NCBI GenBank assembly: GCA_014763895.1
Contig: JACXUM010000016.1
Span: 1-37,171 of the forward strand
Source: Campylobacterales bacterium
GTDB taxonomy: Bacteria; Campylobacterota; Campylobacteria; Campylobacterales; Sulfurovaceae
Length of the DNA stretch: 37,171 nucleotides
Direction: 5' to 3'
Part shown: positions 292 through 36,951 of the stretch, one piece after another
Layout: each line of letters starts with the position of its first letter
How positions within the stretch are numbered: the first letter of the stretch is position 1
Made by a program: the position numbers and the translations under genes
Notes under the pieces: model-generated
Databases searched by the model: none
Told to the model about the DNA's origin: nothing
The model's input: only the letters and a program-made list of their open reading frames with translations

Positions 292-987
292 TCAGCCGGA
301 AAATCTATTCCTGAATAGTTTGGCCCCGTCTTTGCTAGACTCGATCTGATCGGTGATATCATGGAAACTGAAGCGGAGCTTGCTTTGTTCGATGGTATCC
401 ATCTCTTTGACCTTATTGAGATTTACAAGATATGAACGGTGAACACGAACGAACTCATATGGTTCTAAAAGCTTTTCAAGATCCGAAATTTTTTGTGTAT
501 AGTAAGAGAATCCCTTTTTGGAACGTAATATCACTTCACTGAGATCCGCTTGTATATAGTAAATGTCTTCAGGTTTCAACAAATAGTAGTTTTCTCCGTT
601 TTTTGTCATAAAACGCAATGCCTGGTCCCTGATAGGAACCGTTTTGACACGTTCAATACTTTCTTTAAGCTGTTCAATGCTGTAGGGCTTGACAAGATAG
701 CCGACCGCGCCGATGTCGTAGGCTTTAAGCGCATGCTGATCATAGGCAGTCTGGAAAATGATAGCGAGGTCTTTTTGATGGTACCTCAGTTCATAGCCCA
801 GTTCTAGGCCGCTTGTTTGGGGCATGTTGATATCAAGCAACACAAGATCATACGTATCAGCTTGAACAGCATCAAGCGCTTCTTGGGCAGAGCTTGCCTG
901 TATAATGTCGTGGTATCCAAGTGTCGCAAGCATACGCTGCAATCGTGAAAGGGCAAGCGCTTCATCATCAACAATGAGTATTTTCAT
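292..987 (-). CDS. LytTR-family response regulator
   Basis: This is a 231-aa two-component response regulator with an N-terminal receiver (about 1-118) and a C-terminal LytTR DNA-binding domain (about 125-228). The receiver shows the acidic pair D7-D8, the phospho-acceptor D52 in LLDINMP, T80 and the invariant K100 before P101. The LytTR part contains the typical EFVRVHRSYLVNL segment. The gene overlaps the end of the histidine kinase gene by 20 nt, so the two form one system translated from one message with hemH and the FAD oxidoreductase. LytTR proteins typically bind paired 9-bp direct repeats about 12 bp apart just upstream of, or on, the -35. Fourteen such repeats occur in this window, including one in front of this operon, so autoregulation is likely. 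The signal is unknown. Confidence 0.95.
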   Translation of the reverse strand: MKILIVDDEALALSRLQRMLATLGYHDIIQASSAQEALDAVQADTYDLVLLDINMPQTSGLELGYELRYHQKDLAIIFQTAYDQHALKAYDIGAVGYLVKPYSIEQLKESIERVKTVPIRDQALRFMTKNGENYYLLKPEDIYYIQADLSEVILRSKKGFSYYTQKISDLEKLLEPYEFVRVHRSYLVNLNKVKEMDTIEQSKLRFSFHDITDQIESSKDGAKLFRNRFSG

Positions 988-1975
988 GGCATTCTCCCAG
1001 GTAAATTTTAAAGGTAGGTGTTTGGGTATCGGTTATTTGGATTGTACCTTTACAGAGCAATTCAAGGCGCTGGATCAGATTGGTCAGGCCGATACCGAAT
1101 GTTGGTTGTTTTATTGGTTTACCGTTGTTACTTAGAGTGATTACATTCAGTGAGGGATCGTAAGAAAGGGTGATTTCCAATTCCTGCTTAGTGATCAATC
1201 CGTGTTTGATCGCATTCTCCACTAAAAGCTGGATAGAGAATTTTGGTACGTTGATGGAGGGAAGCGATGATATGGTGTGCATTTTTATCTTGCCTCCAAA
1301 TCGTATGTTTTCCAGCTCTATGTAATCGTTTACATTTTTCAGTTCGTCACGAAGCGGTATAAGTGCGGCTTCATTCATGGTATTTCGCAAGAATGAAGAG
1401 ACTTTCAAAATGGCCGTTTCTGCTTTGTACGGATCCTGGTGAATGAGTTCTGCGATGGAATTGAGTGCGTTGAATAAAAAATGGGGATTGAGTTGTGTTT
1501 CAAGGGAGCTAAGCCTGCTTTGAAGATAATGTTGATCGACGAGTTCTTTCGCATTGCGCATTTTGACAAAGCGATAAAGCAAGGCGCCTACGATATAGGT
1601 CAGCACACCTATGGATAATGAGATGCGTATAACATGCGACTCAAAAAGTGTGATAAGCTCAATGTGAAATGTATGTGCCAGAAAAATACTCGCCAAAGTC
1701 CCTGCAAACCCTGAGATAAATGAGAAAAAAACAGCCAAAGGCACCCAGTAATTTTTTGATACCTTTGGAAGAATCTTCTGATTCATCAACGTAATGAAAA
1801 TAAGTGAAAACAGAGTAATCGTAAATCCAAGAATTGCACCAAACACCGCACCATGAGTCCAGGTATGTTCCAGGAGCAGATAGCCCAGGGTGGAAAGCAT
1901 TGTAGAGAACATCACACCGGTGAATAATACATGAAGCCAGTCAGAAGGTTTGATTTTCAGTTCAAGGTCATACAT
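968..1975 (-). CDS. LytS/YehU-type sensor histidine kinase
   Basis: This is a 335-aa membrane sensor kinase of the His_kinase (PF06580) type. Hydrophobic segments at about 13-36, 42-64, 78-101 and 112-136 give four or so membrane spans with only short loops, so the sensing surface is probably within the membrane. The phospho-acceptor His165 lies in QLNPHFLFNALNS, the ATP-binding N box is LVENAIKHGL (N254) and the G box is GIGLTNL (about 294-300). There is no PAS, LOV or GAF sensor. It overlaps the upstream FAD oxidoreductase gene by 8 nt and the downstream regulator gene by 20 nt. Being cotranscribed with heme genes, it may sense a membrane or redox/photo-oxidative state, but that is inference. 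Confidence 0.93.
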   Translation of the reverse strand: MYDLELKIKPSDWLHVLFTGVMFSTMLSTLGYLLLEHTWTHGAVFGAILGFTITLFSLIFITLMNQKILPKVSKNYWVPLAVFFSFISGFAGTLASIFLAHTFHIELITLFESHVIRISLSIGVLTYIVGALLYRFVKMRNAKELVDQHYLQSRLSSLETQLNPHFLFNALNSIAELIHQDPYKAETAILKVSSFLRNTMNEAALIPLRDELKNVNDYIELENIRFGGKIKMHTISSLPSINVPKFSIQLLVENAIKHGLITKQELEITLSYDPSLNVITLSNNGKPIKQPTFGIGLTNLIQRLELLCKGTIQITDTQTPTFKIYLGECHENTHC

Positions 1976-3389
1976 GCATGACCTTTATGAGATTTTGCAC
2001 TCCTATCATGACACCCGGCCATCCCTGGGCTGCATACACCGTGTCACCCACATGATAAAGACCTTCTATCGGGGTATCGTTTGAAGGGAGTTTTGGAAGA
2101 AAGTTTTTCATTGTGATAGGGTTTCCTCCTAATTGGGCGCGGTTGATATAGCGTGCAAATGTCTTAGGCGTTGCTGCAAATTGATCGACGATCTGTTCTT
2201 TTTTGATATCGAGTATATCACATACAGACTTTATGAGTTCATTTTTCAGACTCTCTTTTTGCATTTTGTATGTTTCATTGTTTTCCCAGTACCGTGTATC
2301 AGTATGGATGGACACCGTGACACTGTAGTGACCTTTCGGGGCAAGCTCATTATCGTCTTTATCTGAAAATGATACAAAGAGGGCATTGGAGAGGGTATAT
2401 GGGTATGTGTTGTCTTGTATGAGTTGATAGTGATGTGCAAAGTCCGCATTGCTTTTGATGGTCATATACAGCATGAAAGAGCTTTGGTGGTTATTGAGCT
2501 TTTCATACGATTGGTAATATCCCTTGATCTGTGGATTTTCAAACAATGTATCGCTGTTGAACATGGTCGTATTGAGTATCACGTTCCTGGTTGAATAAAC
2601 TTCTTTGGATGTACACACAAGGTAATGATCGTCTTGTTTGATGATCTTTTCAACGGGTGTTGATCTCTTCATCATTTCGATCGAGGCAGTCAACCCATCA
2701 AAGAGTCTGCTAAAGCCGCCCGGTACGTAGTAGGTTTTGTTAAATGTATATCCCAGTGCAAGTGCAGCGGTCAGAAAATTGATCTCTTTGAGTGGGGCCT
2801 GTGCCACGATCAGCACCTGAGCTTCTAAAAATTTTAAGTATTCATCATCGAGGTCTTTGTATATGCCTGAGATGAATTGCAGGGCATTGGTGTAAAGGCA
2901 TTTTCTGAACTTGAGAGCCAATGGAAGATAGCTGAGCAGTGATAATATATTTTTTAATATAGAACGGTTGGAATAGTAATATCCCTGAACTTTATAAAAG
3001 GATTGGTTGATCTCATACACCATATGCCAGAATGTATTGTGCTGTGCATGAGGATAATTGGCTTGAAGCGCTTCTAAGAACAGATCAAGGTTTTGGTATC
3101 TAGGTGTGGTTTTGCCGTTTTGTATCACGGTAATCGCAGGATCGGTCTGTATCAGCGTAGGGGTAAACCCAACGGCATCGAACATCTGTTTGACAGGATG
3201 CCCCTCTTCATACCCGACCAATGTCGTAGCACCAGTATTGTATTTGTATCCGTGTCGCTTGAAGGTGGAGCTGCACCCGCCAAGGTAGGGTTCTTTTTCA
3301 AAAAGTACTGTTTTGAATCCTTTGGCCTGAAGGTAGGCGGCGATGGTGCTGCCTCCTATCCCTGATCCGACAACAGCATAATCGATCAT
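1968..3389 (-). CDS. phytoene-desaturase-like FAD/NAD(P) oxidoreductase (COG1233 type)
   Basis: This 473-aa flavoprotein has an N-terminal Rossmann FAD motif GSGIGG (8-13) with an acidic strand end LFEKE and then GGCSSTF. A typical C-terminal signature, LYHVGDTVYAAQGWPG, also contacts the cofactor. The family includes carotenoid desaturases and isomerases and distant relatives of protoporphyrinogen oxidase. No phytoene synthase or other carotenoid gene is present, so a carotenoid role is not supported locally. The start ATG overlaps the hemH stop in an ATGA (3386-3389), which indicates translational coupling to ferrochelatase. A role in tetrapyrrole oxidation, supplying or protecting the HemH step, is therefore possible but unproven. 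The substrate is unknown. Confidence 0.82.
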   Translation of the reverse strand: MIDYAVVGSGIGGSTIAAYLQAKGFKTVLFEKEPYLGGCSSTFKRHGYKYNTGATTLVGYEEGHPVKQMFDAVGFTPTLIQTDPAITVIQNGKTTPRYQNLDLFLEALQANYPHAQHNTFWHMVYEINQSFYKVQGYYYSNRSILKNILSLLSYLPLALKFRKCLYTNALQFISGIYKDLDDEYLKFLEAQVLIVAQAPLKEINFLTAALALGYTFNKTYYVPGGFSRLFDGLTASIEMMKRSTPVEKIIKQDDHYLVCTSKEVYSTRNVILNTTMFNSDTLFENPQIKGYYQSYEKLNNHQSSFMLYMTIKSNADFAHHYQLIQDNTYPYTLSNALFVSFSDKDDNELAPKGHYSVTVSIHTDTRYWENNETYKMQKESLKNELIKSVCDILDIKKEQIVDQFAATPKTFARYINRAQLGGNPITMKNFLPKLPSNDTPIEGLYHVGDTVYAAQGWPGVMIGVQNLIKVMHV

Positions 3390-4327
3390 GCACTTACTTT
3401 CATGCTTTGATAGATATCGGTGATACAGTTGACAAAATAGTGGTGATCGTTGGGAGCTTTGGCGACGCGGTACTCTTCGAAGCCCAATTCATCAGCTATC
3501 TCTCTGTACTCAACATCAAGCTCAAATTCTGTTTCGGAGTTATCGATCGTAAACGCGACAGGGTAGATGATTACCTTTTTTTTCTTCAGCGTTTTGAGTT
3601 TCTCATCAAGGTAAGGACGAATCCATTCCAAAGGTCCCAAACGCGACTGGTAGGCAAGATGTGTCTTATGGAAGGAGATACCTGCAAGTGTAAGCGCTTT
3701 TCTGGCGTGATAGACATTGTATTTGACATGGCGCTGATAGAGATCGCCTTTTTCGATGATCTTTTTTGGCAGTCCGTGTGCGGAGAAAACAAGCTCGAAC
3801 TCGCCTGGATCTTCTCCGTTTAAAGCCTCTTTGATACGTTCGACTATGGCAGCGATATAGTCTGGATGGTTATAGTAATGTGGTATCGTCTTCACTGTTG
3901 CTTTGATACCGTGTTTTTGTAAATTGTGATGCAGGTCGTCCATACTTGAAAGTGTGGTAGTGCTTGAATGATGAGGGTAAAGCGGGATAGCATAGATCTC
4001 ATCGATGTCTTGAAGATGATGGATGATATCTGCACAAAACGGCGGCGTATAGCGCATCACCATGTGCACCTTTGCATCGATTTTGGTTTGAAGGTGACGG
4101 ATAAGATTTTTGGTGTATCCCACGATAGGGGATTTACCTCCAAGCGCTTTGTAGTTCTCTTTGGCCTCATTTTTTCTTTTCCATGTGATGAACTTTGCGA
4201 TCATCGCCCGGATTGGCTGGGGCGCTGCGATGATACGTTTATCGTTGAACATATTGTTTAAAAATACTTCCACCTCGGAGAGGTTGTTGGGCCCTCCCAT
4301 ATTCATTAGCAAAACGGCGCGTTTCAT
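3386..4327 (-). CDS. hemH: ferrochelatase
   Basis: This enzyme inserts Fe2+ into protoporphyrin IX (or coproporphyrin III in other clades) in the last steps of heme synthesis. The 313-aa protein contains the N-terminal LLMNMGGP motif, the catalytic histidine H184 in VFSAHGLPKK, the YQSRLGPLEW segment, and the acidic metal-path motif DNSETEFELD (262-271). I chose the ATG at 4327 because GAGGAG sits 7 nt upstream. A TTG two codons earlier (4333) is only 1 nt from that Shine-Dalgarno sequence and is unlikely. It is the first gene of an operon with the FAD oxidoreductase and the LytS/LytTR pair. A shared-class promoter lies 27 nt upstream at 4354-4403. Confidence 0.96.
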   Translation of the reverse strand: MKRAVLLMNMGGPNNLSEVEVFLNNMFNDKRIIAAPQPIRAMIAKFITWKRKNEAKENYKALGGKSPIVGYTKNLIRHLQTKIDAKVHMVMRYTPPFCADIIHHLQDIDEIYAIPLYPHHSSTTTLSSMDDLHHNLQKHGIKATVKTIPHYYNHPDYIAAIVERIKEALNGEDPGEFELVFSAHGLPKKIIEKGDLYQRHVKYNVYHARKALTLAGISFHKTHLAYQSRLGPLEWIRPYLDEKLKTLKKKKVIIYPVAFTIDNSETEFELDVEYREIADELGFEEYRVAKAPNDHHYFVNCITDIYQSMKVSA

Positions 4328-4353
4328 GATCAAGCTCCTCGCTTTTTTATTAG

Positions 4354-4403
4354 ATTTTACAAGGAAAGCGCAGTTGTTGGTATGATAAAAATGTCAGTTC
4401 ATA
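4354..4403 (-). promoter_or_regulatory. promoter of the shared class, hemH-lytSR operon
   Basis: On the minus strand the upstream half-site TATGAACTG (4395-4403) continues into TGACA (4392-4396). The -35 is TACCAA (4377-4382) and the -10 is TAAAAT (4354-4359), separated by 17 bp. The two half-sites TATGAACTG and TACCAACAA are 21 bp apart in register. The reverse complement TCAGTTCAT fits the published LytTR half-site consensus at every position, and the operon encodes the LytTR regulator. Confidence 0.65.
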
Positions 4404-9261: not shown

Positions 9262-9311
9262 ATTTTATGCTGTATTAGAATATTTTTGTATGGGTATTAT
9301 GTCGGTTGGTT
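9262..9311 (-). promoter_or_regulatory. promoter of the shared class, lipocalin-cfa-GPx operon
   Basis: On the minus strand the upstream half-site is AACCAACCG (9303-9311) leading into CGACA. The -35 is TACAAA (9285-9290) and the -10 is TAAAAT (9262-9267), with a 17-bp spacer. The upstream repeat overlaps the stop codon of the preceding methyltransferase gene (9310-9312). Confidence 0.65.
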
Positions 9312-13703: not shown

Positions 13704-13753
13704 ATCTTATAAATTTCAGAAATGTTTTTGTATAGAAAATTTGTCATTTGAAT
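13704..13753 (-). promoter_or_regulatory. promoter of the shared class, flavoprotein-SDR operon
   Basis: On the minus strand the upstream half-site is ATTCAAATG (13745-13753) leading into TGACA. The -35 is TACAAA (13727-13732) and the -10 is TAAGAT (13704-13709), with a 17-bp spacer. It is divergent from the SRPBCC promoter at 13814-13863. Confidence 0.6.
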
Positions 13754-13813: not shown

Positions 13814-13863
13814 GATGAAATGTCAAATCACGGCTATGAATAGAATGCCTGGTTTTGTAAAAT
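13814..13863 (+). promoter_or_regulatory. promoter of the shared class, SRPBCC gene (leaderless)
   Basis: The upstream half-site GATGAAATG (13814-13822) leads into TGTCA. The -35 is TATGAA (13835-13840) and the -10 is TAAAAT (13858-13863), with a 17-bp spacer. The ATG begins only 6 nt after the -10, so the message should start at or next to the start codon. Confidence 0.6.
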
Positions 13864-14975: not shown

Positions 14976-15025
14976 ATTGTATATGTTCATTCGATTTTTT
15001 AGTATAGGCTATTTGTCGGTTCGTC
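14976..15025 (-). promoter_or_regulatory. promoter of the shared class, queF
   Basis: On the minus strand the upstream half-site is GACGAACCG (15017-15025) leading into CGACA. The -35 is TACTAA (14999-15004) and the -10 is TACAAT (14976-14981), with a 17-bp spacer. Read on the plus strand, CGGTTCGTC is close to the AlgR-type (LytTR) site CCGTTCGTC. Confidence 0.6.
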
Positions 15026-19379: not shown

Positions 19380-19428
19380 ATTATAGTGCGCATAGTCTCT
19401 TTTGGTACGCTATTTATGTCGTTTAATT
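19380..19428 (-). promoter_or_regulatory. promoter of the shared class, trpB (16-bp spacer)
   Basis: On the minus strand the upstream half-site is AATTAAACG (19420-19428) leading into CGACATAA. The -35 is TACCAA (19402-19407) and the -10 is TATAAT (19380-19385). The spacer is 16 bp, the only exception to 17. The upstream element abuts the mirror-image element of the divergent gene at 19504. Confidence 0.6.
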
Positions 19429-19474
19429 AATTGACATAAACTGACTACGAATCATGTTTTTTTTAAGTTAATAT
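19425..19474 (+). promoter_or_regulatory. promoter of the shared class, gene at 19504
   Basis: The upstream half-site AATTAATTG (19425-19433) leads into TGACATAA. The -35 is TACGAA (19446-19451) and the -10 is TAATAT (19469-19474), with a 17-bp spacer. Together with the trpB site it forms the inverted pair TTATGTC...GACATAA (19415-19439). Confidence 0.55.
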
Positions 19475-19503: not shown

Positions 19504-19800
19504 ATGAACGAATACAATGCACTCTTTGAAGATGAAAATGATATCATCGCAGGATCGCCCCGTAAACGATATTGGGATATCTGCGGACAGGTAGAAACTG
19601 ACAAAGTCCAAAACGAATTCGATAAAGTGATGGATAAAATATCAGCCATGGAACAGATGCTTATAGAAGAGTATGGAGAACAGGGTATTGACAGCATCGT
19701 AGCAAAATATATAGACGAAAACTTTGAGAGAATAGAGATGCATAAAAAGAATCTCTATCTTGAATATGCAGCAAAACTCATCTTCGCCCAGAACGACTGA
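19504..19800 (+). CDS. small acidic conserved-type hypothetical protein
   Basis: This 98-aa acidic, largely helical protein starts MNEYNALFEDENDIIAGSPR and continues KRYWDICGQVETDKVQNEF. A GAAGGA Shine-Dalgarno sequence sits 6 nt before the ATG. The long helices at about 32-60 and 65-92 could form a coiled coil. There is no signal peptide or membrane span, and I do not recognise a family. It is divergent from trpB, shares its control region, and is convergent with the flavin reductase 12 bp downstream. Confidence 0.75.
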   Translation: MNEYNALFEDENDIIAGSPRKRYWDICGQVETDKVQNEFDKVMDKISAMEQMLIEEYGEQGIDSIVAKYIDENFERIEMHKKNLYLEYAAKLIFAQND

Positions 19801-20349: not shown

Positions 20350-20399
20350 ATTTTATCTATTCAGTGAGGTATTTGGTAGGAATGGTATGTCAATTGATG
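20350..20399 (-). promoter_or_regulatory. promoter of the shared class, flavin reductase
   Basis: On the minus strand the upstream half-site is CATCAATTG (20391-20399) leading into TTGACATA. The -35 is TACCAA (20373-20378) and the -10 is TAAAAT (20350-20355), with a 17-bp spacer. Confidence 0.6.
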
Positions 20400-22063: not shown

Positions 22064-23613
22064 CTTTTGCTCCTTAGAAAAAATAATCTAAGCGCTCCCG
22101 CGCCAAAAAGGAGGAGGGCAAAGTCCTCATAGTGTTTGTCATAGTTGACCAAAAAGATCGCTCCAAGCATCAACCCCAGCGTGATCGATACCGATGATAC
22201 TTTGGCGGCGAGTCTCTTTTCAAGCACTTCCAACTGCCGTTTGGAAAGCTCGACACTCAGGTTCTCTTCACTGATCTTGTAGATACTGTCCCTGAATGCC
22301 TTGATATCAAGCGGAAACTGTCTAAACTCATCGATCAGGGTCTCAAGAATGCTCTCTTTTGCACCTAGTGCCCTTGGGATATTTTTTTGCAGGATAGGAA
22401 GAATGTCCTTGATGCCGTTGAAATTCTCGATATAGGTGGTGCCAAGTCCCTCGATGATGGCGCTGACACGAAGGATATAGATCGCTTCCTGCGGAAGTTT
22501 GAAAGGAAGATTTCGGGTTTTCTCCAGCACTTCAAACGCAAGTTCCTGCATGCTTGCGCTATCGAGCGTATCGTTGTTGAATATCTCGAACATACTTTCG
22601 GTAAATTCTGCCAGTTCGCTTACCGGTGCATCATAGGCCACCGTACCAAGGCGTTTGCTTGCATTGACGTAGCGTTCATAGTCTTGTTCATTGGCAGCTT
22701 TTATGAGCTCTATGATGGCTACGCGCGTTTCGTTTGGCACACGTTTGACCATCCCAAAATCCAGTAAGATCAGCTGGCCCTCTTTGGAGATGAGCAGATT
22801 GCCCGGATGGGGATCGGCATGAAAGTATCCTTTGACTAGCATCTGCTCGGTGTAGAAAGAGACAAGTGTGTCGATAATGGGGTATATATCGATCCCACAG
22901 GCTTCAAGTGATCTCCTGTCATCAAAGCGGAACCCTTCCTCAAAGCGCATCACCAGTGCATCGTCACAGCTAAGTTCCTCGTACGTGCAAGGAAATCGTA
23001 CACCCATGTGTGCATATGTTTGGGAAAATTTTATAAGATTGGCTCTCTCATGATTGAGGCTGACCTCTTTGAGTATCATAGAAGAAAACTCAACGATCAC
23101 TGCTTCGATAGAGTGCTTGGTGTAGTGGGAAAACAAAGGACGGAAGAGTTGATTGAAAGCGGTCAGGATACGGATATCTGCTTTGACCTGTCTTTCTATC
23201 CCTTCACGGCGTAGTTTGACGGCAACTTTTACACCGTCATCCAGCCATGCTTCGTGGACCTGACCGATCGATGCGGAAGCGATGGGAGTAGTATTGAATT
23301 TTACAAATGGATTTGTTTTAAATGCACGCTCAAATACATGCTGCATCGTTGTCTGACTCATCGCGGGGAGTTCATCATGCAGCATTTTAAGAGCGTTGAG
23401 ATACTCTGATGGGAAAAAGTCATTACGCGTAGCAAGCACTTGCGCCAGCTTGATAAAACTGGCCCCCAGTGATGTAATGGTATCTACCAACCTTGCAGGA
23501 CCCAGTGGTGAAAATAACAAAAAGCGATCGCGTTTGCGTATCAACAGATAAAGGGTCAGCAACACTTGAAAAACATGCCATATCCTTACAGGAGAGTAGA
23601 GTTTGTATACCAC
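22060..23613 (-). CDS. ABC1/UbiB-family atypical kinase
   Basis: This 517-aa UbiB/ADCK-type protein has the KxxQ-type motif KLAQ (55-58), the alanine-rich loop ASIGQVHEAW (114-123), K133 in VAVKL, HADPHPGN (265-272) and DFG (285-287). The C-terminus has hydrophobic spans (about 475-510). UbiB homologues support quinone synthesis or extraction. Campylobacterota make menaquinone, and this paralogue sits with lipid genes, so a role in lipid handling is possible. The start is GTG at 23613, whose first base is the last base of the phasin TAG stop, with AAGAG upstream. Confidence 0.92.
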   Translation of the reverse strand: MVYKLYSPVRIWHVFQVLLTLYLLIRKRDRFLLFSPLGPARLVDTITSLGASFIKLAQVLATRNDFFPSEYLNALKMLHDELPAMSQTTMQHVFERAFKTNPFVKFNTTPIASASIGQVHEAWLDDGVKVAVKLRREGIERQVKADIRILTAFNQLFRPLFSHYTKHSIEAVIVEFSSMILKEVSLNHERANLIKFSQTYAHMGVRFPCTYEELSCDDALVMRFEEGFRFDDRRSLEACGIDIYPIIDTLVSFYTEQMLVKGYFHADPHPGNLLISKEGQLILLDFGMVKRVPNETRVAIIELIKAANEQDYERYVNASKRLGTVAYDAPVSELAEFTESMFEIFNNDTLDSASMQELAFEVLEKTRNLPFKLPQEAIYILRVSAIIEGLGTTYIENFNGIKDILPILQKNIPRALGAKESILETLIDEFRQFPLDIKAFRDSIYKISEENLSVELSKRQLEVLEKRLAAKVSSVSITLGLMLGAIFLVNYDKHYEDFALLLFGAGALRLFFLRSKR

Positions 23614-23873
23614 TATTTCTCTTTTTTCAGCGCCTCAATGTCTGCTTTGGTCGCAAGACCCATCTCATCGATCACTTCTTTAAGGGCTTCTTTTATCTTG
23701 GATTTGAGTTTTTCCTCTTCTTCTTCGCCGCGTGTTTGGAGTTTTTTGATGAAGTTATCGGCATCTTCTTTGCTTAGTTTGCCTTTTTCTTCAAGCTTTT
23801 TTATCTCTTCATCTACACGCTCTTTGAGCAAGATCGCGCCGCCAAGCCCGGTATATAGGATCTCTTTGATCAT
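23613..23873 (-). CDS. phasin-like coiled-coil protein
   Basis: This 86-aa, highly charged protein has a hydrophobic N-terminus (MIKEILYTGLGGAILLKERV) and then long Lys/Glu helices ending in ATKADIEALKKEK, as in PhaI/phasin-like granule-associated proteins (PF05597 type). AAGGA lies 6 nt before the ATG. Such small proteins are often encoded just before UbiB-like kinases, so it may be an accessory or localisation factor for the kinase. No PHA synthase is seen here. Confidence 0.82.
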   Translation of the reverse strand: MIKEILYTGLGGAILLKERVDEEIKKLEEKGKLSKEDADNFIKKLQTRGEEEEEKLKSKIKEALKEVIDEMGLATKADIEALKKEK

Positions 23874-23910
23874 GATGATTCCTTTTTTGTTTCATTGTAA
23901 CATGTAAGTA

Positions 23911-25362
23911 TCAATTTTCATAGCCTTTTTTTGACGGTTCATTTGTGTGTGCTTTTTGATAGATCGCGCGTATCATATTGCCAAACACGAGATAATGCAG
24001 CGGGGTAAGCAGGTACCAGTAAAGTCGTCCCCAAAGGCCGCGAGGGTAAAAATAGGCTGTCTGTATGAACTCATCTCCCTGTATCTTGAACTCCAGCCAT
24101 GCTTTGCCCGGAACCTTCATTTGTGCCCGCAGAAGCAGTCGTTCATTTTCAACAAGGTCTTCGACTCTCCAAAAATCAACGCTTTCACCGATACGCAGTT
24201 TGTATCTGTCACGTCGTCCCCTGTTGAGACCTGCACCGCCGATGAGTTTATCAAGAGCGCCTCGTACTTCCCAAAGCCACTCATAGCCGAACCATCCCCC
24301 TTTGCCTCCGATGGCACAGAAGGTTTCATAAAGTGTTTTTTTGTCGACATTTGTTATCTTTAAGGTCTGCCGATCCATCAGGATAGCGCTGGATGGATCG
24401 TGCTTGTGTTGCGCTTCCCATAGGTCTACGCCACCTCCCGCATCACTCCAGCGGCTATGTATCTGGTTATTTTCCATCTCTTGTATCGCTTTTTGTACCG
24501 CTTCTTGAAAGCTTGCGGGATGAATATGTGGAAAATATTTTTTGGCATGGTCGTTTTGTACGACCACCTCAGAGGAGAGGCCTTCTATGAGTGACTTTGC
24601 CACGTTATAGGGTACCGGAGTAAAGAGGTTGAGCCAGTAGGAAGAGAGTTTGATACTCAGCACGGGCAGGGGAATGATCCATCGCTTCAAACCCAGTGCT
24701 TTTGCGCAAGAAAGCATCATTTCTTTATAGGTCATCTTCTGGCTGCCGATGTCTACGATAAGATTGTTGTCATACTTCAGGTCTTTGGCGCTATCAAGGT
24801 AGCTGATGACATCATCGACGCCGATAGGCTGTGCAAGTGTGGAAACCCATTTGGGCGTGACCATGACGGGGAGCTTTTCACTCAGATGACGTATGATCTC
24901 AAAGCTTGCACTCCCTGAGCCGATGATGACTCCTGCGCGTATCCAGATGGTCTGTATCTCATCTGGTCTGCTTGAGAGTATCTCGCCGGTCTCTATACGG
25001 CTGAGAAGGTGTTGGCTTGCATGCTCTTTAATACCTAGTCCACCCAGATAGATGATGCGTTTGACCCCGCATTCTACCGCTGCATCAAGAAAGTTTTGAG
25101 CGCTTTGTTTATCAAGCTCACGATAGTTTTCTTCTTGTAAAGAGTGGATGAGATAGTAAGCCACATCGACACCCTCGAGAGCCTTTTGCAGCGCATGCAG
25201 ATCAAATGTATCCCCTTGGAAGACTTCAGCTCTTTCGTGTATGGTTTTGTCCAGACTTTTGGGATTTCGAACGAGAAGTCTCAAATCATGTTTTTGGATT
25301 AGCAGCTTTTGTTTGAGCCTTCTTCCGATATAGCCGTTGGAACCGGTGAGTAAGATTTTCAT
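23911..25362 (-). CDS. DUF2867-type extended SDR (NAD(P)-binding, nucleoside-diphosphate-sugar-epimerase-like)
   Basis: This 483-aa protein has an N-terminal Rossmann domain with TGSNGYIGRRL (6-16). It continues as an atypical extended SDR to about residue 290 and has a C-terminal DUF2867 domain (about 320-470). That domain includes GGKGGWFGYEWLWEVRG and RIGESVDFWRVE, with a membrane-associating stretch YWYLLTPLHYLVFGN. The catalytic YxxxK is not obvious, so it may be a binder rather than a dehydrogenase. It leads the operon with the phasin-like, UbiB-like and lipocalin genes. AAAGG lies 7 nt before the ATG. Confidence 0.9.
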   Translation of the reverse strand: MKILLTGSNGYIGRRLKQKLLIQKHDLRLLVRNPKSLDKTIHERAEVFQGDTFDLHALQKALEGVDVAYYLIHSLQEENYRELDKQSAQNFLDAAVECGVKRIIYLGGLGIKEHASQHLLSRIETGEILSSRPDEIQTIWIRAGVIIGSGSASFEIIRHLSEKLPVMVTPKWVSTLAQPIGVDDVISYLDSAKDLKYDNNLIVDIGSQKMTYKEMMLSCAKALGLKRWIIPLPVLSIKLSSYWLNLFTPVPYNVAKSLIEGLSSEVVVQNDHAKKYFPHIHPASFQEAVQKAIQEMENNQIHSRWSDAGGGVDLWEAQHKHDPSSAILMDRQTLKITNVDKKTLYETFCAIGGKGGWFGYEWLWEVRGALDKLIGGAGLNRGRRDRYKLRIGESVDFWRVEDLVENERLLLRAQMKVPGKAWLEFKIQGDEFIQTAYFYPRGLWGRLYWYLLTPLHYLVFGNMIRAIYQKAHTNEPSKKGYEN

Positions 25363-25396: not shown

Positions 25397-25446
25397 ATTA
25401 TAGAATATTTTTGCGGGGATTGATAGAGTGTTTATGACGATTGGTT
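25397..25446 (-). promoter_or_regulatory. promoter of the shared class, DUF2867-UbiB operon
   Basis: On the minus strand AACCAATCG (25438-25446) and TATCAATCC (-35 region, TATCAA at 25420-25425) are near-identical 9-bp repeats 12 bp apart. The -10 is TATAAT (25397-25402) after a 17-bp spacer. This is the clearest direct-repeat example of the set. Confidence 0.65.
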
Positions 25447-25455
25447 GAGGGGACC

Positions 25456-25505
25456 TATGAAATGACATCAAAGAGGTATGAAAAGAGAAAGGAATGTATT
25501 ATCAT
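25456..25505 (+). promoter_or_regulatory. promoter of the shared class, metallophosphoesterase (leaderless)
   Basis: The half-sites TATGAAATG (25456-25464) and TATGAAAAG (starting 25477) are almost identical direct repeats. The -35 is TATGAA (25477-25482) and the -10 is TATCAT (25500-25505), with a 17-bp spacer. The ATG at 25511 follows after 5 nt. The divergent DUF2867 promoter ends only 10 bp away. Confidence 0.55.
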
Positions 25506-25510
25506 ACCTT

Positions 25511-26428
25511 ATGTGCAAAGAAAGAATAGAAAATACCTATATCATCGGCGATGTTCACGGATGCTTTCATACGATGCAAAAATTGATCGGCAGATTGCCT
25601 GTCAATGCAAGGATCATTTTCGTAGGCGATCTGTGTGACAAAGGCAACTTCTCCAAAGAGGTCATCGAGTACGTCATATGTAACGGGTACGAATGTGTCA
25701 AGGGAAACCATGAACATCTTATGGAGAAGTACCTGTATGATGCAGTGCATAAAGAGATACACAGTCCATGGAGCACAGACTACCGCTATGGAGGCATGCA
25801 GACCTATGAGAGCTACCTGAATGACCATGAAACGATGGACAGACATCTTGCATGGCTCTCAGCGCTTCCGATGTACATCGAGATAGAGCAGTACTTCATC
25901 ACGCACGGTTTTGCCCTGCCGTTTTATGAACACAGAAACAATCCTGTTTACTACAACGACTTTCTGCTTCACCGTTATGAAAAAGGGATGAATGTACCCC
26001 CAAGCAGCGTGGTCAACATCTTTGGACACTGTGTGTTCGATGAAGTGGTCAGCGGCGAGAACTTCTATGGTATCGATACAGGGTGTTCCTATGGCAATAA
26101 ATTGACTGCTATTGAGCTTGGCACCATGCAGATCATACAAGAACCGATGGATGCACGCGATTCGACATACGAGATCAAAGAGATGGCATTGCATCATCTT
26201 GGGGAAGTAGTAGATGAGACTGTAGCACTATCCGAGATTATCGCGCGTATCGACAGACGATTTTGTGAGTTTGATCTTCTTTCGACAGAAGTCGCACATC
26301 ATGTGGTATCAACATATGGCGAAGAGGGTGTGAATGCAGTGCACGGGATGCTGGAGAAAAAGCAGCTTTTTATGAAGCAGGCAAAAAAAGTCATAGAGAA
26401 TTTCGAAACAAAACGACTCATCAAATGA
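25511..26428 (+). CDS. calcineurin-like metallophosphoesterase (PPP/ApaH-like)
   Basis: This 305-aa phosphatase has the metal-binding motifs IGDVHGC near the N-terminus, VGDLCDKG and KGNHEH, then FGHCVFDE and IDTGCSYG, as in serine/threonine phosphatases and diadenosine-tetraphosphate hydrolases. The frame is open further upstream to an ATG at 25478, but that would include the -35 and -10 elements. The ATG at 25511, directly before the conserved domain, is therefore preferred and implies leaderless translation. The C-terminal third (about 220-305) is helical and not typical of ApaH. The substrate is unknown. Confidence 0.88.
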   Translation: MCKERIENTYIIGDVHGCFHTMQKLIGRLPVNARIIFVGDLCDKGNFSKEVIEYVICNGYECVKGNHEHLMEKYLYDAVHKEIHSPWSTDYRYGGMQTYESYLNDHETMDRHLAWLSALPMYIEIEQYFITHGFALPFYEHRNNPVYYNDFLLHRYEKGMNVPPSSVVNIFGHCVFDEVVSGENFYGIDTGCSYGNKLTAIELGTMQIIQEPMDARDSTYEIKEMALHHLGEVVDETVALSEIIARIDRRFCEFDLLSTEVAHHVVSTYGEEGVNAVHGMLEKKQLFMKQAKKVIENFETKRLIK

Positions 26429-26468
26429 CAAAATCGGCATACAAAAGATTCTTTGTTATCTGTAATAT
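26419..26468 (+). promoter_or_regulatory. promoter of the shared class, gene at 26495
   Basis: The upstream half-site CATCAAATG (26419-26427) leads into TGACAAAA. The -35 is TACAAA (26440-26445) and the -10 is TAATAT (26463-26468), with a 17-bp spacer. The upstream repeat overlaps the stop codon of the phosphoesterase. Confidence 0.6.
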
Positions 26469-26494: not shown

Positions 26495-26851
26495 ATGCCA
26501 CACATCGTACTTGAAAACATCGACAACACCAGAAAAGCCTTTGATGCAGTTAGCAGATTTGCAGAGAAAACTGAGAACGGCATACTCAAAGTGATGGAGA
26601 AATACATCAACGACAAAGAACAAAGCGTACTGGTAGACTCACTGGCCATCGAAAACGGCGTAAACCAAAACTTCTTCATCCAACTCTCATCCAAAAAGTC
26701 CAGCCTAACGGTCAGGCTACTGCCTCTGACCGACCCCGAAAAGACAAAGGGCGTCAAAAGTATCATGGCAATGGTGGAAAAACAGATCAAAGATACCGAT
26801 GAGAATATCACATATGGAAAAAACAATCTGGAAGATTTTTTGATACATTAG
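26495..26851 (+). CDS. hypothetical protein, 118 aa
   Basis: This 118-aa soluble protein starts MPHIVLENIDNTRKAFDAVS and has a central strand-rich stretch (NQNFFIQLSSKKSSLTVRLL) and a helical C-terminus. AGGAG lies 8 nt before the ATG, and the gene has its own promoter of the shared class, so I regard it as real. I recognise no family, signal peptide or membrane span. It lies between the phosphoesterase and a frameshifted DUF3592-like gene. Confidence 0.72.
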   Translation: MPHIVLENIDNTRKAFDAVSRFAEKTENGILKVMEKYINDKEQSVLVDSLAIENGVNQNFFIQLSSKKSSLTVRLLPLTDPEKTKGVKSIMAMVEKQIKDTDENITYGKNNLEDFLIH

Positions 26852-27658: not shown

Positions 27659-28390
27659 CTAAGACTTGAACTCGCTCATCAACTCCCGATACAGTAACGG
27701 GACGAAGTTACGCTGAACCTTATAGTTTTTTCTTGACTCGATGGCTACGGTATCGAAAAAGGTTTTCCAGAGTTTTTGGAAATGTTTTTCATCCTCATGC
27801 AGCGTTGGTTCGCTGGCTTCGAGGATGGGGTGCAGCTGCAGGTTTTGCCCGTCCCAGACACAGATCAGACCGCGCTTGATATCATGGATGATGAAGTGTT
27901 CGCTTTTGAGACGTTTGACAAAATGTTTTCCGATCAATGGCAGGACATTGCGTGGCGGAGCGATCTTGGCGTATAGCATCCCGTCATCCAGCATCTCAAA
28001 ACGGGTAAAGGCGTACATCTTGTGGATGGTAGTAAGCAGACGCTTCTGATACCCCTCAACAGCATAGACAACGGGATGCGAAAGATCATGAATCAGGCTT
28101 AGGTCTTTAAATCCCATACGAAGATAGAGCAGCAGGTCTAGTTCAAAGGGCATATCATCACACAAGAAGACATGAAAGATACGTTCGAGGATCTTTTTGG
28201 GAAAGCGCTCGTTGATGCTTTTGGATACTTTCGCAGCTGTTTCAAAATCCGTTTCTATGATCTCTCTCTCGTCAAGTAGTGTCAGGCCGGCGCTGTCCAT
28301 GGTGAGTTTTTCAGGAATATATTTATAAATATAACTTCTGTGAAGCGAAGTGAGGAACCCTTCAAAACTCCCATCATAGGTCCATATCAT
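27659..28390 (-). CDS. TIGR03915-family putative DNA repair/metabolism protein
   Basis: This 243-aa protein starts MIWTYDGSFEGFLTSLHRSY, the usual opening of the family that accompanies a radical-SAM/HhH protein. Further motifs are LSLIHDLSHPVVYAVEGYQK and PPRNVLPLIGKHFVKRL. In some bacteria it is fused to a uracil-DNA glycosylase-like domain, but that domain is absent here. The ATG at 28390 lies 1 nt after the partner's stop with AGGAG upstream. The frame extending to 28492 lies inside the partner gene and is rejected. A role in DNA modification or repair is inferred from the partner and from the adjacent photolyase. Confidence 0.88.
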   Translation of the reverse strand: MIWTYDGSFEGFLTSLHRSYIYKYIPEKLTMDSAGLTLLDEREIIETDFETAAKVSKSINERFPKKILERIFHVFLCDDMPFELDLLLYLRMGFKDLSLIHDLSHPVVYAVEGYQKRLLTTIHKMYAFTRFEMLDDGMLYAKIAPPRNVLPLIGKHFVKRLKSEHFIIHDIKRGLICVWDGQNLQLHPILEASEPTLHEDEKHFQKLWKTFFDTVAIESRKNYKVQRNFVPLLYRELMSEFKS

Positions 28391-28391
28391 C

Positions 28392-29627
28392 TCACAGCTC
28401 TCCTGTGGTACTTTGAATGATATCAAAAAGGCTTGGCTGTGTACCGGGCTTCGGCATTTCAAGCGCAAGCATCTTTGACTCAAGCCGCTCATAGCGAAGT
28501 TCGGTCTGATCTATAGGGCTGCCGCCTGCAGTGATGAAGTAACGTGCACGTTTAAGCGAGATCTTCATCGTATCAAGATCACGTGCCAGAAGCAGTTTCT
28601 GACGTCTGGCCCTGAGTATTTTGTTCACGCTACGTACGCCAAGTCCGGGTACACGAAGGAGTGTTTCACGGTCTGCACGGTTGATCTCGACTGGAAAATG
28701 GTGCAGGCTGCGTAACGCCCACGCAAGCTTGGGGTCGAAGCGTTCATCTAGAAAAGGATTCTTTTCACTGGCGATCTCATCAAAGGCAAATCCGTAAAAG
28801 CGCATCAGCCAGTCTGCCTGATAAAGCCGATGTTCTCTAAGTAGTGGTGGCGGAGTGTTTAGAGCCGGCAGATGCTTGTGCGTTGTAGTGGGGATGTAGG
28901 CTGAGAAGTAGACACGCTTGAGCAGGCTTTTGTTGTAAAATGTATCGCTGAGCTTGAGGATCTCATAGTCGCTTTCAGGACTGGCACCGATGATCATCTG
29001 TGTGCTCATACCCATGACCTTTTTGCCCTGTGTAAGCGCATCGTTTTTGACGATATGCAGAGGCTGAAATAGCTTCTCTTTTGTCTTATCAGGAGCAAGG
29101 AGCGCCAGGCTCTTTTGACTCGGTAGTTCGATGTTGGAGCTGACACGGTCTGCCAGAGCAGTAACGGCACGGATGAGATACTCCGAAGCTCCCGGGATAA
29201 GCTTCACATGGACATAGCCGTTAAAGCCGTGTTCATAGCGCAGGATCTTCAGGCTTTTGAGGATCAGCTCCATCGTATGGTCTTCACTGCCGATGATACC
29301 CGAGCTTAAAAAGAGCCCCTCGATGTAGTTACGTTTGTAAAAATTGACCGTCAGGTCAGCCACCTCTTTAGGGCTAAATGCCGCACGCTGTCTGTCGTTG
29401 CTGATGCGGTTGACGCAGTAGACACAGTCATAGATGCAGTGGTTGGTAAAAAGGATCTTTAGCAGCGAGATACACCGTCCGTCTGCAGAAAATGCATGGC
29501 AGATGCCGCTGGCATGGGTCGATCCTATACCGCCAAAGTCCTGTGTGCGTGTAGAGCCTGAAGAGGAGCAGGAAACATCGTACTTGGCTGAGTCTGTAAG
29601 TATAGCTAGTTTTTCTTCTACTGTCAT
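28392..29627 (-). CDS. TIGR03916-family radical SAM/helix-hairpin-helix putative DNA repair protein
   Basis: This 411-aa radical-SAM protein has the [4Fe-4S] motif CIYDCVYC (C64, C68, C71) preceded by the family segment GGIGSTHASGICHAFSADG. A C-terminal helix-hairpin-helix DNA-binding motif, LLRVPGLGVRSVNKILRARR, suits damaged or structured DNA. With its partner at 27659 it forms a widespread two-gene unit annotated as putative DNA modification/repair, with no proven reaction. It is divergent from the DUF2805-photolyase operon. No convincing Shine-Dalgarno sequence or shared-class promoter is visible upstream. Confidence 0.9.
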   Translation of the reverse strand: MTVEEKLAILTDSAKYDVSCSSSGSTRTQDFGGIGSTHASGICHAFSADGRCISLLKILFTNHCIYDCVYCVNRISNDRQRAAFSPKEVADLTVNFYKRNYIEGLFLSSGIIGSEDHTMELILKSLKILRYEHGFNGYVHVKLIPGASEYLIRAVTALADRVSSNIELPSQKSLALLAPDKTKEKLFQPLHIVKNDALTQGKKVMGMSTQMIIGASPESDYEILKLSDTFYNKSLLKRVYFSAYIPTTTHKHLPALNTPPPLLREHRLYQADWLMRFYGFAFDEIASEKNPFLDERFDPKLAWALRSLHHFPVEINRADRETLLRVPGLGVRSVNKILRARRQKLLLARDLDTMKISLKRARYFITAGGSPIDQTELRYERLESKMLALEMPKPGTQPSLFDIIQSTTGEL

Positions 29628-29699: not shown

Positions 29700-29749
29700 A
29701 TTGAAATGACTTTGTAAGACTACGAAAAGATTGTTTGATAGCATAAAAT
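29700..29749 (+). promoter_or_regulatory. promoter of the shared class, DUF2805-photolyase operon (leaderless)
   Basis: The upstream half-site ATTGAAATG (29700-29708) leads into TGACT. The -35 is TACGAA (29721-29726) and the -10 is TAAAAT (29744-29749), with a 17-bp spacer. The sequence TAAAATACCTGTATG to the start codon is nearly identical to that of the SRPBCC gene (TAAAATACCAGTATG). Confidence 0.6.
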
Positions 29750-33810: not shown

Positions 33811-33860
33811 ATTCTATAGGAATGAAAGAAATGTTTGTAGAGCTTATTTGTTAGTTTGTT
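33811..33860 (-). promoter_or_regulatory. promoter of the shared class, thiD operon
   Basis: On the minus strand the upstream half-site is AACAAACTA (33852-33860) leading into TAACAAAT. The -35 is TACAAA (33834-33839) and the -10 is TAGAAT (33811-33816), with a 17-bp spacer. It deviates from the class by TAACA in place of YGACA. Confidence 0.5.
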
Positions 33861-36901: not shown

Positions 36902-36951
36902 ATTATATAGCAAATTATTATAGTCTCGTAGCGACTATTTGTCGATTGGTC
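36902..36951 (-). promoter_or_regulatory. promoter of the shared class, DUF523-phrB-pdxH operon
   Basis: On the minus strand GACCAATCG (36943-36951) leads into CGACAAAT. The -35 is TACGAG (36925-36930) and the -10 is TATAAT (36902-36907), with a 17-bp spacer. The block ACCAATCGACAAATAG closely resembles the queF site. Confidence 0.6.

Follow-up and report, generated by a model that had tools for sequence, protein, structure and literature searches.

A 37,171-nucleotide stretch of a Campylobacterales genome (GCA_014763895.1, contig JACXUM010000016.1, positions 1 to 37,171; hereafter the window, contig C17 of the 1.77-Mb source genome G000) carries a LytS/LytTR two-component gene pair and a promoter element shared by many of its genes, which a first-pass annotation had linked as regulator and binding site. 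The response regulator, encoded at 292..987 (-), consists of a receiver and a LytTR DNA-binding domain (Pfam Response_reg, 7.6e-28; LytTR, 1.4e-19) and is the sole PF04397 match in the source genome. Across 11 orthologues the receiver residues D7/D8, D52 (the phospho-acceptor Asp), T80, and K100 are invariant, as are F179, R181, H183, R184, and S185 of an FxRxHRS motif, and the C-terminal SSKDGAKxFR is mostly invariant too. The equivalent FhRhHRS motif makes DNA contact in AgrA (PMC4227749). Fold comparison matched the predicted structure best to full-length ComE and also to the LytTR domain of 3d6w, while a sequence search of solved structures returned only the receiver domain among the matches listed, with 3d6w as a weak LytTR match. 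By these features the 292-987 protein is a LytTR (AlgR/AgrA/LytR) two-component response regulator.

Its gene overlaps that of an adjoining cognate LytS-type sensor kinase at 968..1975 (-) (His_kinase, PF06580, 4.5e-24), in which H165 is invariant. The kinase has about four N-terminal transmembrane helices, modeled as four long helices with short loops ahead of a GanS-like kinase core, and no sensor domain was recognized by domain search or by a fold search that identified the catalytic core only. Directly upstream of lytS, in every orthologous locus that reaches that far, lies a gene for a CrtI/CrtD-like flavin adenine dinucleotide (FAD) oxidoreductase (1968..3389 (-)); this protein scores below NCBIfam cut-offs, and NCBIfam offered no specific name for it or for the kinase. 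The ferrochelatase gene hemH at 3386..4327 (-), assigned by NCBIfam and paralogue comparison, is a second genome copy, 46% identical to the one on contig C7. Overlaps join lytTR to lytS, lytS to crtI, and crtI to hemH, which is consistent with a single hemH-crtI-lytS-lytTR operon, and a copy of the shared element at 4370..4403 (-) (26.8 bits; -10 GTAAAAT) forms the predicted autoregulatory operator in front of it. The kinase and regulator pair thus does lie behind this site in the hemH operon, as first annotated, and the LytTR consensus match claimed for the reverse strand of the hemH site is present, with TCAGTTCAT reading on the + strand upstream of hemH (about 4392-4400).

A direct-repeat element with LytTR geometry

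The shared element is a direct repeat, AYNAAYYRACA-N9-TAYNAA, with a 21-bp period. It occurs 15 times in the window, always at 15 bits or above, compared to an average of 0.00 sites at that threshold in Markov-1 random sequence. A matrix built with the window excluded from the counts recovered the same 15 sites, each of at least 15.9 bits, and the sequences preceding island genes, in the window and in relatives, yielded 53 sites of at least 15.3 bits before scores dropped to 6.9 bits. Read towards the gene, the consensus is A-Y-N-A-A-Y-Y-R-A-C-A-W-A, 6-7 less conserved bases, C-T-A-Y-N-A-A, 17 bp, and a TATAAT-like -10. Of 39 upstream sites, 35 have a TANNNT box that starts 17 bp past the final A of repeat 2, which places this repeat on the -35 hexamer. 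Self-similarity of the matrix columns peaks clearly at a shift of 21 (5.35; runner-up 2.91), in agreement with the layout of a LytTR operator, in which about 12 bp separate two 9-bp direct repeats. The imperfect 9-bp repeats of 21-bp period reported at first pass are therefore present, including the quoted pairs AACCAATCG/TATCAATCC at 25413-25446(-) and TATGAAATG/TATGAAAAG at 25456-25489(+), both at the 21-bp period, but the two half-sites differ: repeat 1 (AYNAAYYRACA) is the longer and stronger one, and repeat 2 is conserved only as TAYNAA.

We scored the published LytTR consensus, [TA][AC][CA]GTTN[AG][TG], at all offsets on both strands of 86 extended sites. The best two positions were exactly the two half-sites on the reverse strand (7.59/9 and 6.50/9, against a mean of 4.59), with repeat 1 reaching at least 8/9 in 55 of the 86 sites and repeat 2 weaker. 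This bears out the proposed LytTR-site geometry, with repeat 2 placed on the -35 and the consensus running on the strand opposite to transcription. No conserved third repeat 21 bp away, as in CoxC, was found in the extended-site alignment. Conservation between promoters is limited to the half-sites, the -10, and a purine-rich stretch for ribosome binding; the intervening sequence has almost no shared information.

Predicted regulon and its confinement to one island

The sites precede the operons of both photolyases, cfa, glutathione peroxidase (GPx), lipocalins, hemH, thiamine genes and pdxH, queF, and trpB, which matches the regulon first proposed; gene names beyond Pfam and NCBIfam matches rest on reading of the translations. 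Elsewhere in the window, predicted operators stand before a lipocalin-FAD-DUF1365-cfa-DUF3833-GPx operon (9278..9311 (-), 32.4 bits), an FAD oxidoreductase-SDR-SnoaL-MFS-methyltransferase operon (13720..13753 (-), 24.3 bits) and a divergent SRPBCC-like gene (13814..13847 (+), 21.0 bits), queF (14992..15025 (-), 27.3 bits), and a trpB paralogue with a downstream GAF kinase (19395..19428 (-), 22.9 bits). Divergent from trpB, a strong site (19425..19458 (+), 25.3 bits) precedes a 98-amino acid open reading frame (ORF) at 19504-19800(+), which has no known function and was missing from the first ORF list. Further sites precede a flavin reductase-like gene (20366..20399 (-), 24.9 bits), an 86-amino acid ORF (23613-23873) followed by an ABC1/UbiB-like kinase and a second lipocalin (23910..23943 (-), 26.0 bits), an NAD-epimerase-like gene (25413..25446 (-), 21.5 bits), and, more weakly, a metallophosphatase gene (25456..25489 (+), 16.3 bits). 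The called start of this last gene (25478-26428) overlaps its operator, and translation probably begins further on, at an ATG near 25511. The remaining sites belong to a hypothetical gene at 26495-26851 (26419..26452 (+), 25.3 bits), DUF2805 with a second photolyase/cryptochrome-like gene (29700..29733 (+), 20.6 bits), a thiD-thiE-thi5-like operon (33827..33860 (-), 26.1 bits), and DUF523/DUF1722-photolyase-pdxH (36918..36951 (-), 24.0 bits). A radical-SAM putative DNA repair protein (TIGR03916; 28392-29627) and its partner (27659-28492) also lie inside the island, with no site of their own in the window.

Genome-wide counts, made with an IUPAC pattern rather than the matrix, revealed that the element is largely confined to this island. 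Ten of the 12 exact matches in the 1.77-Mb genome fall inside the 37-kb window, as do 12 of 16 when one mismatch is allowed, and other stretches of the source genome (24.5 kb) gave no match of at least 12 bits. The objection that the motif might precede most housekeeping genes thus failed. The window holds second copies of hemH and trpB; their counterparts on contigs C7 and C12 have no site. The island thus probably provides versions of heme, pyridoxal phosphate, and thiamine enzymes for use under stress.

One of the four one-mismatch matches outside the window lies at a second DUF523-photolyase-radical SAM locus of the source genome (L140:9160-15301, G000:C35), whose photolyase is 66% identical. 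All that is left there of lytTR is a 17-codon remnant, and a deletion appears to have removed the hemH-crtI-lytS-lytTR operon. This locus has lost its own lytTR and still has one site, as a trans-acting regulator predicts, since the window copy can act in trans.

Distribution among relatives

We scanned 80 whole genomes with a strict pattern that includes the -10, and obtained 61 matches compared to nine for the reversed pattern used as a control. At least two sites were present in nine of 12 genomes with a LytTR orthologue and in one of 68 without (Fisher p 9e-9, phylogeny ignored). Site counts in the 12 were 12, 5, 6, 2, 2, 9, 4, 1, 2, 2, 1 (in a genome with a broken lytTR), and 0 (in a 78%-complete genome); among the 68, 55 had no match, 12 had one, and a single genome (G029) had three. 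The zero or one match in 67 of the 68 is near the reversed-pattern control, against two to 12 in nine of the 12 carriers, and so the expectation that would have undone the first-pass proposal, relatives keeping the motif without the LytTR protein, mostly failed. Three other families of the order show the same co-occurrence (p 1.5e-4, phylogeny ignored), and it is visible within one genus, where G055 has LytTR, a photolyase, and two sites, whereas G073 has a photolyase, no LytTR, and no site. The sole other LytTR gene found in the 80 genomes, a non-orthologue in G028, is accompanied by no site. Photolyase genes co-occur with lytTR as well (10 of the 12 orthologue genomes vs six of the 68 others). 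Carriers of the orthologous system include Sulfurimonadaceae, Arcobacter, Aliarcobacter, and other Campylobacterales. In one genome, G011 (L076:6286-7403), crtI-lytS-lytTR is frameshifted and degenerate, and a degraded photolyase fragment lies elsewhere.

Ten orthologue-bearing Sulfurimonadaceae and Arcobacter loci, drawn from a different collection and outside the training set, were held out; nine have the site, and the tenth ends before the operon start. The surroundings of other LytTR or response-regulator genes (1.13 Mb) gave two matches, and both lack a -10 at the expected spacing. In all 17 lytS-lytTR operons whose 5' end is visible (some in the training set), the site stands 67-83 bp ahead of the first gene, be it hemH, crtI, DUF523, or an FAD gene. 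As the site is present whatever the first gene, it follows the regulator rather than a particular enzyme, which is the best evidence for the autoregulation suggested at first pass.

Interpretation and alternatives

We consider it highly probable that the shared element is the operator of the 292-987 LytTR regulator, a predicted activator of its own operon and of some 14 other promoters in a photo-oxidative protection island. This explanation accounts together for the observed motif and its geometry, for the confinement of the sites to the island and their co-occurrence with this LytTR, and for the conserved place of a site in front of the regulator's own operon. What is known of the LytTR family suggests binding, phosphorylation, and activation, and the gene content suggests that the signal may be light or photo-oxidative stress. 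In the mechanism we propose, a membrane or redox/light signal would set off the autokinase activity of the LytS-type kinase (968-1975), which would then phosphorylate Asp52 of the regulator. A regulator dimer would bind cooperatively to the two half-sites, whose 21-bp period corresponds to two helical turns, with repeat 1 occupied first and repeat 2 second. The downstream half-site would lie on the -35 of sigma70 promoters that have no consensus -35, where the regulator may recruit RNA polymerase, so as to switch on its own operon and about 14 other promoters, including those of the second hemH and trpB copies. The hemH-lytTR operon would thereby provide positive feedback.

Several observations weigh against this explanation. 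Because the sites are inherited together with the regulator as parts of one island, the counts are inflated, and the p-values take no account of phylogeny. G029 is 99% complete and has no LytTR, yet has three pattern matches (five matrix sites), and G033 has one clear site but only a lytTR scar: at L133:16720 hemH-crtI-lytS-lytTR is deleted, with the last 20 or so lytTR codons left and the spacing to the next gene as in relatives. One site each was also found in G001 and G041, whose assemblies are fragmented. G029 and G033 look like recent losses of the regulator, and sites can evidently outlive it. Decay is also seen elsewhere in the G029 island (L131:7845-17383), where the photolyase is reduced to its C-terminal end and the SnoaL gene is split, and the G033 and C35 lytTR scars end at nearly the same codon. 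The placement of the site is a further difficulty. Typical LytTR activators bind repeats that stop about 10 bp short of the -35, on its upstream side, with the consensus reading towards the gene (PMC6193735), whereas the island sites read the opposite way and overlap the -35, like the site of the LytTR repressor CoxC, though CoxC uses three repeats (PMC11347149).

This placement is the main attraction of a less likely but serious alternative, in which regulator and operator are the same but LytTR acts as a repressor, covering the -35 until a stress signal releases it. Repeat 2 coincides with the -35 hexamer, as the CoxC site does (PMC11347149), and the half-sites are oriented opposite to those of tabulated activators. 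However, the -35 position reads TAYNAA rather than TTGACA, so the unaided promoters should be weak, and the third repeat that CoxC needs is not conserved 21 bp away. ComE, a receiver-LytTR regulator, is mostly an activator. The same is true of the receiver-LytTR regulators AgrA, YpdB, and SilA (PMC4227749, PMC4847170, PMC2766830). Between the two signs, we favor activation without great firmness.

It is improbable that the motif belongs to another regulator, with LytTR as a passenger, even though the same gene set is controlled by RpoE2-ChrR in Shewanella (PMC4336711) and by a MerR protein plus ChrR in Vibrio cholerae (PMC5241685). No extracytoplasmic function (ECF) sigma gene was found in the source genome, which has one sigma70-like (region-2) gene, and the -10 is TATAAT-like rather than CGTAT-type. 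The single MerR match, considered because of the gene content, is a 131-amino acid frame, too short for a vitamin B12 receptor of the LitR/CarH kind, and so both ChrR/sigma-E and MerR/LitR controls seem unavailable. DUF2805, which adjoins the second photolyase, occurs in three of the 80 genomes and is missing from most of those with the motif. A possible variant is that an unrecognized regulator encoded elsewhere was lost together with LytTR.

Still harder to credit is a general sigma70 promoter class of the lineage, made up of an upstream element and a -10 rather than a regulatory operator. A -10 does follow nearly always, and Campylobacterota promoters are AT-rich and have no clear -35, but the concentration of ten of 12 exact genome matches in the window, the empty 24.5 kb elsewhere, and the absence of the motif from most relatives argue otherwise. 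Recent promoter duplication within a mobile island, the least plausible source of the likeness, would explain why the sites cluster but not why the sequence between conserved elements shares almost no information or why sites precede unrelated genes in several families.

The operator reading defines a compact regulon of about 15 promoters, one genome island, and one regulator. It would give an orphan LytTR system of the Sulfurimonadaceae and Arcobacteraceae a function, and would mean that control of a conserved set of photoprotection genes can pass between regulators of entirely different kinds (ECF sigma, B12-MerR, and LytTR two-component). It also raises the question of how a four-helix kinase with no recognized sensor domain detects light or oxidant. 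We further put forward, as a speculative and rather doubtful extension, that Campylobacterota have rewired a photo-oxidative regulon, which they share with Gammaproteobacteria, to a dedicated LytS-LytTR pair, with a reversed half-site replacing the -35 and the CrtI-like flavoprotein that consistently adjoins lytS forming part of a light or singlet-oxygen sensor. Our literature search found no paper linking LytTR to photolyase control.

Comparison with known systems

The closest counterpart in gene content is the RpoE2-ChrR regulon of Shewanella, which includes ybgA(DUF523/1722)-phrB-cfa, glutathione peroxidase with a second hemH, and a photolyase with an SDR gene (PMC4336711). Like RpoE2-ChrR of Shewanella, Vibrio, and Rhodobacter (PMC4336711, PMC5241685), the island system would be autoregulated and has largely the same target genes. 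Unlike these, which rely on an ECF sigma factor at TGATCC/CGTAT promoters, it combines sigma70-type promoters with a LytTR-like operator. LitR and CarH, which are B12-binding MerR proteins, govern light-induced photolyase, cfa, and related genes, whereas the only MerR protein of this genome has 131 amino acids and is encoded elsewhere. In Vibrio, a MerR light regulator likewise governs light-induced photolyase, cfa, and related genes (PMC5241685).

In its regulator the island resembles ComE, AgrA, YpdB, BtsR, and SilA, which share the receiver-LytTR architecture and 9-10-bp direct repeats at a period of about 21 bp, and several of which are autoregulated. Their targets, however, are competence, virulence, pyruvate uptake, or bacteriocins, and their sites usually lie upstream of the -35 in forward orientation, whereas the island sites are reversed and lie on it. 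The one-component LytTR regulators CoxC and RcoM (PMC11347149) also use direct repeats two turns apart, with -35 overlap in CoxC, but have three repeats and a gas-sensing domain fused to LytTR, and CoxC represses. The gene set is one that sigma-factor or B12-receptor regulons control elsewhere, and it is the switch that appears to differ.

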